A DNA stretch of 64,000 bases from Fidelibacterota bacterium (GTDB lineage Bacteria > Fidelibacterota > Marinisomatia > Marinisomatales > Marinisomataceae). Below are positions 4,387 through 6,508 of this stretch, piece by piece. How positions within the stretch are numbered: the first letter of the stretch is position 1; each line of letters opens with the position of its first letter. The stretch lies in assembly GCA_028140795.1 (NCBI GenBank), contig JAOIOW010000001.1, positions 150,466-214,465 of the forward strand, read 5' to 3'. The notes under the pieces were generated by a model. It had not been told where the DNA came from and searched no databases. It saw only the letters and a program-made list of their open reading frames with translations. The position numbers and the translations under genes were made by a program.

Positions 4387-4414
4387 AAAAGGGCTCAAAA
4401 TTTGAGCCCTTTTT
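4387..4414 (-). terminator. Intrinsic terminator after the small membrane protein genes
   Basis: GGGCTCAAA and TTTGAGCCC (4391-4409) form a near-perfect hairpin flanked by AAAA on the left and TTTTT on the right, so it can work in both directions. It ends transcription of the minus-strand small gene whose stop codon is at 4443. It also isolates the amidase operon that starts at 4360. Confidence 0.85.
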
Positions 4415-4442: not shown

Positions 4443-4655
4443 TTATTTTTTCATCCACATTGCAACAATCATAACTGCTACTAAACCGGCAACTCCACCA
4501 TCTCCAATTGCGCTTACTGCATTACCAATGCCCGCAATAACACCAAAGACGTCATCATAAAGTATACCAATAATAGTACCAGCAACAATCAAGTTCATTA
4601 ATAGGCCTGTTGTCATACCTAAAAAATCATTGATTTGTTTAATCACATTTTTCAT
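4443..4655 (-). CDS. Small two-helix membrane protein, paralogue B (unknown function)
   Basis: 70 residues with two long hydrophobic stretches (about 14-32 and 36-67) and a Lys-Lys C-terminus. I do not recognise a family. It aligns by eye with the 68-residue protein encoded just upstream: both share GIL(Y/F)D, a Gly-rich turn, then GG(V/L)(A/T)GL followed by a hydrophobic run. A Shine-Dalgarno AAGGAG lies 7 bases before the ATG, which is strong evidence that it is translated. It is second in a two-gene unit, preceded by an 11-bp hairpin and followed by an intrinsic terminator. Possible roles such as pilin-like subunit, holin-like pore or membrane scaffold are speculation. Confidence 0.82.
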   Translation of the reverse strand: MKNVIKQINDFLGMTTGLLMNLIVAGTIIGILYDDVFGVIAGIGNAVSAIGDGGVAGLVAVMIVAMWMKK

Positions 4656-4678
4656 TGTGTTTTCTCCTTCGAGCTTTT

Positions 4679-4703
4679 AGAGCTCCTCATATTGAGGAGC
4701 TCT
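4679..4703 (-). other. Intercistronic 11-bp hairpin between the small membrane protein genes
   Basis: AGAGCTCCTCA and its exact complement flank a 3-base loop. On the transcribed minus strand it is not followed by a T-run, so it is not a standard terminator. It ends about ten bases before the AAGGAG ribosome binding site of the downstream gene. An mRNA-stabilising or processing element that sets the ratio of the two proteins is a reasonable guess. Confidence 0.6.
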
Positions 4704-4725
4704 ATTTATTAGTAAATACTGATCT

Positions 4726-4932
4726 TTATAATAGTGATAAAAATACTACCAGAACTAGAAGTCCTGTTAGTCCACCATTAAGAAAAGTATCTACAAAACC
4801 CATTATACCACCTAGTGCATCAACTGGTGTATCGAAAAGTATGCCTGCAAAAACAAAAAAGATAATTGCAGCCTTTACTACACCTGTTAGTCCATTTAAA
4901 GCACCATTTAACATTGAATCCCATGAAGCCAT
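4726..4932 (-). CDS. Small two-helix membrane protein, paralogue A (unknown function)
   Basis: 68 residues, highly hydrophobic, with two predicted membrane segments (about 17-34 and 50-68) and very few charges (Asp5, Lys20, Asp34, Asp38, Asp48). The pattern GILFD...GGIMGFVD...NGGLTGLL matches paralogue B downstream. A near-perfect Shine-Dalgarno AAGGAGG lies 7 bases before the ATG. Transcription probably starts at the minus-strand promoter at 5074-5102 and passes a leader terminator at 4965-5006. The family is unknown to me. A tandem pair of tiny, well-translated membrane proteins under apparent attenuation control is uncommon in this compact region. Confidence 0.82.
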   Translation of the reverse strand: MASWDSMLNGALNGLTGVVKAAIIFFVFAGILFDTPVDALGGIMGFVDTFLNGGLTGLLVLVVFLSLL

Positions 4933-4964
4933 GTTATTCCTCCTTGATTAGTTAATAACTAGTT

Positions 4965-5006
4965 AAAAAAAAGGCAAAAACCCTATAAACTTATAGTTTT
5001 TTTGCC
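4965..5006 (-). terminator. Leader terminator (putative attenuator) upstream of the small membrane protein genes
   Basis: On the minus strand GGCAAAAA pairs with TTTTTGCC, and an inner CTATAA pairs with TTATAG across a small internal loop. This is followed directly by eight T (4972 down to 4965). It lies between the promoter at 5074-5102 and the ATG at 4932, and I see no second promoter after it. It should therefore either stop most transcripts after about 100 nt or be a controlled attenuator. Confidence 0.78.
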
Positions 5007-5063
5007 CCCATCATTAATCATGTCAATATGATTAAATTCTTTAAAAAGTTGCCAAAAATTCAT
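4983..5063 (-). CDS. Possible 26-residue leader peptide ending inside the leader terminator
   Basis: An ATG about four bases after the predicted transcription start opens a 26-codon frame beginning MNFWQLFKEF and ending ISL. Its TAG lies in the downstream arm of the terminator hairpin. There is no Shine-Dalgarno, so translation would have to be leaderless. If translated, a ribosome reaching the stop would melt the hairpin and allow read-through, as in pyrBI-type attenuation. The frame may also be chance; codon number and position are the only evidence. Confidence 0.3.
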   Translation of the reverse strand: MNFWQLFKEFNHIDMINDGGKKTISL

Positions 5064-5073
5064 CTTATTTATA

Positions 5074-5102
5074 ATTATAGTCTCTTTTTTTGGGGTAATC
5101 AA
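5074..5102 (-). promoter_or_regulatory. Sigma-70-type promoter for the leader and small membrane protein genes
   Basis: Minus-strand -35 TTGATT (5102-5097), a 17-base spacer and a perfect -10 TATAAT (5079-5074). The predicted start is near 5067, giving a 135-base leader before the ATG at 4932. The rest of the 292-bp gap up to eno (5103-5224) is AT-rich and must hold the eno promoter, but I found no convincing pair of boxes for it. Confidence 0.72.
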
Positions 5103-5224: not shown

Positions 5225-6508
5225 ATGGATAAAACACTTAAACCAATAATCGAGAAGGTTCATGCTAGAGAGATTTTAGACTCGAGGGGATTTCCAACAG
5301 TTGAAGTGGAAATTACAGCATCGGGTCATAAAAGTATATCTGCTGTTCCTTCAGGAGCATCTACAGGAGAATTTGAAGCTCTAGAACTAAGAGATGGAGA
5401 TGCCAAAAGATTTCACGGTAAAGGTGTTTTAAAAGCTGTGGATCACGTTTTAAACAATTTTGGACCAGCATTGATTGGTAAAGATGCAAGCAACCAAAAA
5501 GAAATTGACGATTTACTTATTAATATTGACGGTTCTTCAAATAAAAGTACGTTTGGTGCAAACGCCAGCTTAGGAATATCAATGGCTTGTTCAGTCGTTA
5601 GTGCTACTTTTTATAATAAGTCATTATATCACTTCTTAAACCCTAATAGTAATGTAATGCCTGTACCAATGATCAACGTCCTCAACGGTGGAATGCATGC
5701 AGACCAAGGTTCTGACCTTCAAGAAATTATGTTATTCCCACATGGTGCAAAAAACTTTAAGCATTCTCTTCAAATGGGCTCTGAGGTATTTCATTGTTTA
5801 AAAAAAGAGTTAAAAAAGCAAGGACTAGGAACAACGGTGGGTGATGAAGGCGGATTTGCTCCGGCACTAAAATCAAACGACCACGCAATTGAGCTCCTTC
5901 TTAATTCTATCGAAAAAGCTGGGTTTAATATTGGGAATGATATTTCTTTAGCTTTAGACGTGGCAGCATCAAGTTTTTATAAAAATCATAAATACCATTT
6001 AAAGGTTGATGGAAGCGTTTTAGATACTGATGGAATGATTGGTTTTTATGAAGATTTAATTAAAAAATACCCAATTGTTTCGATTGAAGATGGTTTAGAT
6101 GAAAACGATTGGGAGGGTTGGGCTAACATGAACAAAGTACTTGGTTCAAAGATTCAAATTGTAGGTGATGATTTAACTGTAACTAACCCAAAAAAGCTAG
6201 AAAAAGCAATTGAGCAAAACTCAATGAATTCTATATTAATCAAGTTGAATCAAATTGGGACTGTTTCAGAGACAATCAAGGCCATAGAGATGGCTAAGAA
6301 AAATAACATGAATTATATCATTTCACACAGATCAGGTGAAACGGAAGATACTTTTATCTCTGATCTATCAGTTGCAATGGATGGCGGACAAATTAAAACA
6401 GGTTCAGTGTGTCGATCTGATAGAACTGCAAAATATAATCGACTTCTAAGAATTGAAGAAGAGCTCCAAAACTCAAAATTGTGTAATTCTTTAAACTTTA
6501 TTAAATGA
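5225..6508 (+). CDS. eno: Enolase
   Basis: Interconverts 2-phosphoglycerate and phosphoenolpyruvate in glycolysis and gluconeogenesis. The 427 residues are the usual length. Recognisable segments are the N-terminal AREILDSRGFPTVEVE (Phe where most enolases have Asn), the SGASTGEFEALELRD loop at 43-57, VGDEGGFAP with the proton-donor Glu208, the magnesium-site region IVGDDLTVTN, and ISHRSGETED. The start is chosen by the conserved N-terminus; no Shine-Dalgarno is visible. It overlaps ftsB by 4 bp (ATGA), a common pairing. Confidence 0.98.
   Translation: MDKTLKPIIEKVHAREILDSRGFPTVEVEITASGHKSISAVPSGASTGEFEALELRDGDAKRFHGKGVLKAVDHVLNNFGPALIGKDASNQKEIDDLLINIDGSSNKSTFGANASLGISMACSVVSATFYNKSLYHFLNPNSNVMPVPMINVLNGGMHADQGSDLQEIMLFPHGAKNFKHSLQMGSEVFHCLKKELKKQGLGTTVGDEGGFAPALKSNDHAIELLLNSIEKAGFNIGNDISLALDVAASSFYKNHKYHLKVDGSVLDTDGMIGFYEDLIKKYPIVSIEDGLDENDWEGWANMNKVLGSKIQIVGDDLTVTNPKKLEKAIEQNSMNSILIKLNQIGTVSETIKAIEMAKKNNMNYIISHRSGETEDTFISDLSVAMDGGQIKTGSVCRSDRTAKYNRLLRIEEELQNSKLCNSLNFIK

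Follow-up and report, generated by a model that had tools for sequence, protein, structure and literature searches.

Organization of the locus

We analyzed a stretch of 64,000 nucleotides from a Fidelibacterota genome (hereafter, the window), focusing on a small operon that encodes two short proteins, referred to here as A and B. Both open reading frames were confirmed on the minus strand; A is thus transcribed before B. The features of the operon, in the order of transcription, are as follows:

5074-5102, minus strand: sigma-70-like promoter, TTGATT-17-TATAAT, conserved across the genus
4983-5063, minus strand: putative short ORF in the leader (MNFWQLFKEFNHIDMINDGGKKTISL), uninterrupted in all 13 aligned leaders of the genus
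5013-5036, minus strand: leader palindrome TTTAATCATATTGACATGATTAAT, 24 nt, near-invariant in the genus and present once in the genome
4965-5009, minus strand: leader hairpin resembling a terminator, plus U-run; candidate attenuator
4939-4945, minus strand: Shine-Dalgarno sequence of A, AAGGAGG, -11.2 kcal/mol
4726-4932, minus strand: protein A, 68 aa, first gene of the operon, two predicted hydrophobic helices
4678-4704, minus strand: A/B intergenic hairpin, covarying, located just 5' of the Shine-Dalgarno sequence of B
4664-4670, minus strand: Shine-Dalgarno sequence of B, GAAGGAG, -9.3 kcal/mol
4443-4655, minus strand: protein B, 70 aa, second gene, with an amphipathic N-terminus, two predicted hydrophobic helices and a C-terminal KK
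4387-4413, minus strand: intrinsic terminator of the operon, conserved in the genus

The separate promoter, leader and terminator that the original prediction ascribed to this operon are therefore all present. The spaced pattern said to be shared by the two proteins, GIL[Y/F]D followed by GG[V/L][A/T]GL, is exact in both, reading GILFD and GGLTGL in A and GILYD and GGVAGL in B, and none of the 41 B and 42 A sequences departs from the GxxG of the last motif.

Hydropathy profiles of the A and B alignments contain two hydrophobic segments each, in a chain of about 70 residues, in agreement with the two helices per protein proposed earlier. Protein B starts with an amphipathic stretch (residues 1-17), followed by a hydrophobic segment (18-33) that includes G26xxxG30, by Asp35 (98% conserved), by a surface segment (36-52) with Asp52 at its end, and by a second hydrophobic segment (54-68) that contains the invariant G54 and G57 and precedes a terminal lysine. 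Protein A has hydrophobic segments at the same positions (18-33 and 54-68), with Lys20 conserved at 95%, D38, and the invariant residues F50, G54, G57 and L58; its C-terminus carries no terminal charge in the genus of the window. Columns 54-68 contain no acidic residues in either protein. The N-termini are polar amphipathic stretches on chains of mature size; no cleaved signal peptide is recognizable in the 41 B and 42 A aligned sequences, and a double-glycine (GG-type) N-terminal leader is likewise absent from them. AlphaFold models (10-13 close relatives) have low confidence, with mean pLDDT values of 65.4 and 62.2 and pTM of 0.34-0.36, and place helices at 2-32, 36/39-50/53 and 53/55-67/68; given this poor confidence, even the hairpin fold of A and B rests on hydropathy.

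RNA elements of the operon

The leader hairpin and its U-run are located between the promoter and the ribosome binding site of A. The upstream neighbor, eno, is divergently oriented, so the hairpin does not serve as terminator for a gene upstream of it. Two-sided compensatory changes were found at three of its pairs within the genus. Using a simple rule, a hairpin 15-60 nt before the start codon was found in many families, in 30 of 58 A leaders, which are related sequences and not independent observations, compared to 5 of 57 divergently oriented genes (9%) and 14 of 104 of all control genes from the same loci; a stricter rule yielded 22 of 58 A leaders versus 0-4 in shuffles. It should be noted that the hairpin of the window itself is missed by the rule, due to stem mismatches, and the leader counts are thus lower bounds. 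In the A/B intergenic hairpin, 6 of 10 pairs have changed on both sides and still pair. A search of the operon against Rfam returned nothing near a gathering score.

The leader ORF starts about 10 nt past the -10 box, i.e., it is nearly leaderless, and runs into the hairpin; NHI[D/G]MI is in frame in all 13 leaders of the genus. Summed over seven relatives, its changes include 21 non-synonymous and 4 synonymous codons. This predominance of non-synonymous substitutions implies that the peptide as a whole is not conserved and that, at most, its translation matters. Together, the leader hairpin and the leader ORF suggest transcription attenuation. One member of the genus (L014) keeps the promoter and the A-B pair, but its sequence upstream of A (about 5580-5716) no longer contains the U-run hairpin or the beginning of the leader ORF. 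The leader palindrome was also considered as a regulon operator; this was rejected, as the genome holds one copy within 3 mismatches.

Selection and translation signals

The dN/dS values, calculated against nine or ten relatives from the genus, are 0.016-0.25 for A and 0.02-0.26 for B. Ratios of about 0.02-0.26 overall, rather than near 1, indicate that the sequences of both proteins are under purifying selection.

The two Shine-Dalgarno sequences had been predicted to be among the best in the region. The pairing for A is stronger than that of all 47 other genes of at least 120 aa in the window (median -2.7 kcal/mol), whereas that for B is matched by 2 of these 47 genes, a number that rises to 5 when the most favorable start is assumed for every gene. 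The predicted strong translation is supported indirectly, through these signals, and judging by their strength A and B are probably made in large amounts.

Paralogy and age of the two proteins

The similarity of A and B is not detectable from the window proteins alone (BLASTP, E 8.2, not significant). Conversely, comparison of the A profile (42 sequences) to the B profile (41 sequences) gave a probability of 99.4%, E 2.5e-21 and 23% identity over all 74 columns. By this profile comparison A and B are paralogues, and the earlier description of them as tandem paralogous proteins holds. A tree of 144 sequences places 61 A proteins on one branch apart from B, with a support of 100/100 and a length of 1.5; such a long, strongly supported branch in the main group suggests that both roles are old. 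A divergent second group (families f3, f9, f14 and f20) has A-like and B-like sub-branches of its own, although the A/B labels within this group come from weak profile differences, and in one of its genomes (G162) both copies score as B. The tree contains only 71 columns, which leaves many forks unresolved, and one old duplication cannot be told from two in it.

Distribution across the class and phylum

Using single-sequence queries at E <= 0.1, each of which can also catch the other paralogue, we recognized B in 137 of 171 genomes of the class and in 55 of 59 good genomes (completeness of at least 90% and contamination of at most 5%), and A in 126 of 171 and 51 of 59, respectively. The B profile, which detects A too, matched 143 of 245 genomes of the phylum at E <= 0.01; seven of the matching genomes belong to a family outside the class (f30). 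The profiles are specific: among 9657 six-frame segments from all loci, each profile produced 326 matches up to E 10, and even the lowest-scoring ones are still the pair. The profile searches covered genomes of the phylum of the window; a further scan, over the contigs of all genomes, relied on exact 8-residue words, which capture close relatives only. Related contigs carry the NCBI names Candidatus Marinimicrobia or Neomarinimicrobiota, which correspond to the phylum Fidelibacterota. A streamlined genome, about 0.9 Mb in size, retains the pair too. Homologues are conserved throughout the class, and the original prediction withstands this test. One record titled Cryomorphaceae bacterium CM1_5m.P23 encodes A and B identical to those of the window, with the same flanks; this record is probably a mislabelled SAR406 bin.

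The pair as the conserved unit

B is located downstream of A on the same strand in 116 measured cases, with a gap of 6-152 nt (median 70); these are counts of cases and not of independent lineages, since loci overlap between genomes. All 13 of 13 divergent loci (families f3, f9, f14, f20 and f30) contain two tandem copies. For family f15, the whole unit is present as a tandem duplicate, A-B-A-B, with identical proteins (L098, 7187-8267; L099, 1432-2505), indicating that the unit duplicates as a pair.

The flanking genes vary with lineage. The pair is flanked by eno on one side and an amidase gene (Amidase_3) on the other in the family of the window and in part of f11; by glycosyltransferase, amidase, glutamate-racemase-like, folC-like and rho-like genes in further families of the same order; and by a cysteine-synthase-like gene, a glycosyltransferase-cluster gene and a Bax-inhibitor-like gene in f16. 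The eno/amidase setting, in which the original prediction proposed to look for synteny, is therefore conserved only in some families, whereas the A-B pair is found everywhere. A constant partner gene beside the pair was rejected as a candidate, and this variation of the flanks implies that no third gene is required close to A-B. In many families of the order an Amidase_3 gene occurs within a few genes on the downstream side, but it is missing in f16, so that the linkage may be by descent only. The amidase of the window carries at its N-terminus a hydrophobic stretch of its own that looks like a signal peptide, and lies beyond a terminator. Two adjacent genes for proteins of 289 and 612 aa (L081, 6023-6892 and 4261-6099), with N-terminal hydrophobic stretches and no Pfam match, often separate B from the amidase in several of the order's families.

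Searches against known families

Neither window protein had a match over the cut-off in Pfam or NCBIfam, consistent with the earlier statement that the family is unknown. All aligned A and B members produced weak Pfam matches only, and no cut-off was reached by the members that were checked against cut-offs. PHROGs, searched with the window proteins and with all A members, gave nothing over the cut-off, the one match of note being a single member at E 0.018. A PDB profile search with A and B returned only chance matches, and Foldseek searches of the AlphaFold models against the PDB found no meaningful structural neighbor. There were no relatives in phage genomes (query A), plasmids (query B) or IMG/VR viral contigs. 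A literature search returned nothing on the family, including expression, localization or interaction data. On these comparisons, A and B appear to constitute a new family of two-helix membrane proteins, encoded as tandem paralogues and strongly conserved.

Interpretation

We tentatively favor a model, plausible although far from secure, in which a single abundant oligomeric assembly in the cytoplasmic membrane is built from A and B as distinct subunits, neither of them dispensable. The topology, oligomeric state, abundance, membrane location and structural envelope role of the two proteins are what we infer from their sequences. Each chain would start with an amphipathic N-terminal helix followed by the first of two membrane helices; after it, a segment at the membrane surface bearing conserved acidic residues and then a glycine turn (GGxxGL) would lead into the second membrane helix, which would be short. 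The N- and C-termini of B would both face the cytoplasm, a location suggested by the lysines at both ends. A and B may pack via conserved small-residue faces to form a ring, lattice or filament. Expression would be driven by the operon's own promoter; the leader hairpin may tune read-through, and the intergenic hairpin may set the A:B ratio.

This assembly is supported by the paralogy of the two proteins, the constant A-then-B order, the lineage-variable flanks and the duplication of the whole unit in f15. The invariant glycines, Asp35 and Asp52 in B and Lys20 in A, the best ribosome site in the window, the 100/100 branch separating A from B and the retention of the pair in a genome of about 0.9 Mb argue in the same direction. 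The low AlphaFold confidence (65.4 and 62.2) and the genome with two B-scoring copies (G162) count against it, and a regulator/effector pair would also show constant adjacency. A broader version is possible but doubtful: that the class has as one of its core traits an abundant membrane structure of two components (ring, lattice or filament) not described before. In the genus of the window it would be controlled by a leader attenuator, whose read-through would depend on whether the leader ORF is translated across the 5' arm of the terminator.

Another possibility, which we consider real although on the unlikely side, is that A and B bind to a larger membrane complex, encoded at some other site, and modulate it as small accessory or regulatory subunits, similar to AcrZ or to small respiratory subunits. 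Their size and two-helix build are typical of such subunits, envelope genes (amidase, glycosyltransferases and a FemAB-like acetyltransferase) are found nearby in several lineages, AcrZ is among the weak sub-threshold Pfam echoes, and given the variable flanks the partner could be anywhere. However, accessory subunits are rarely always-paired tandem duplicates with a strong operon of their own, and the neighborhood of A-B yielded no constant partner gene.

A membrane pore or channel of two different subunits, either holin-like or ion-conducting, is unlikely. The two-helix hairpin would suit it, as would the basic ends of B with a likely N-in/C-in orientation, as in class II holins, the GxxxG spacing in the first helix of B and the Amidase_3 cell-wall amidase that adjoins the pair in the window. 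Nevertheless, the amidase, with its signal-peptide-like stretch, is separated from the pair by a terminator and is an inconstant neighbor, the PHROG holin match is limited to the one member mentioned above, and the searches of phage genomes and IMG/VR contigs were negative.

We regard as distinctly improbable the view that A and B are subunits of an extracellular filament, as are the hairpin pilins VirB2/TrbC. A and B are similar in size to mature VirB2/TraA pilins, and abundant translation would fit this role. TrbC/VirB2 (PF04956) is also the closest echo in the searches, with weak matches for 7 of 42 A proteins (best E 0.00019, 22.0 bits, residues 12-66). This best score, for the A protein of locus L084 (genome G046), is nevertheless below the curated cut-off of 27.9, as is every TrbC score seen, and a cleaved signal peptide is not recognizable in the alignments. 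The motors that extract VirB2 from the membrane are VirB4 and VirB11 (PMC12624023). Our filament-motor search covered the VirB4-type ATPase (PF03135), which was found in none of 21 genomes, including that of the window and G046, and was detected in the Caulobacter control. Among the three roles originally left open, the type IV secretion (T4SS) version of the pilin-like role is therefore weakened by the lack of VirB4 and the sub-threshold TrbC scores, and the pore-like and membrane-structuring roles remain.

Finally, a two-peptide bacteriocin or toxin pair, suggested by the tandem small hydrophobic peptides and the GxxxG motif, is highly improbable, given the lack of double-glycine leaders and of an immunity or export gene at a constant position, and a near-universal presence in a class that is unlike that of bacteriocins.

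Returning to the two-subunit membrane assembly, the near-universal presence of the pair in the main class of SAR406 and its relatives, uncultured bacteria that are abundant in the ocean, extends to genomes of about 0.9 Mb and suggests that it is important to the cells; A/B is likely to be a building block of the cells of this group. The pair offers a concrete target for studying what distinguishes this phylum's envelope and, as a marker operon, can be looked up directly in the marine metaproteomes and metatranscriptomes already available to see how abundant it is.

Comparison with known systems

The ATP synthase c subunit (PF00137), a member of a known ring-forming family, resembles A and B as a helical hairpin of about 70-80 residues, whereas the second helix of A and B has no conserved carboxylate. 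The identity of A/B with this subunit was rejected, the sole PF00137 match of the genome being elsewhere (G000:C1:366299-366454), outside the window. Regulators of the AcrZ type are, similarly to A and B, very small, conserved and inserted in the membrane; however, AcrZ has one helix, and 2 of 41 members match it weakly, with a best E of 0.002. Class II holins and pinholins are also small, with two membrane helices and small-residue motifs, and the ends of B are both likely to be inside, as in these proteins; in contrast, A and B are chromosomal, almost universal in the class, and found without phage relatives or a lysis cassette. The VirB2/TrbC pilins differ from A and B, which are always two distinct paralogues, score below the cut-off, have no signal peptide recognizable in their alignments and come, in the tested genomes, without VirB4; what these pilins share with A and B is the presence of two hydrophobic helices, a comparable size and a weak profile similarity to residues 12-66 of A.
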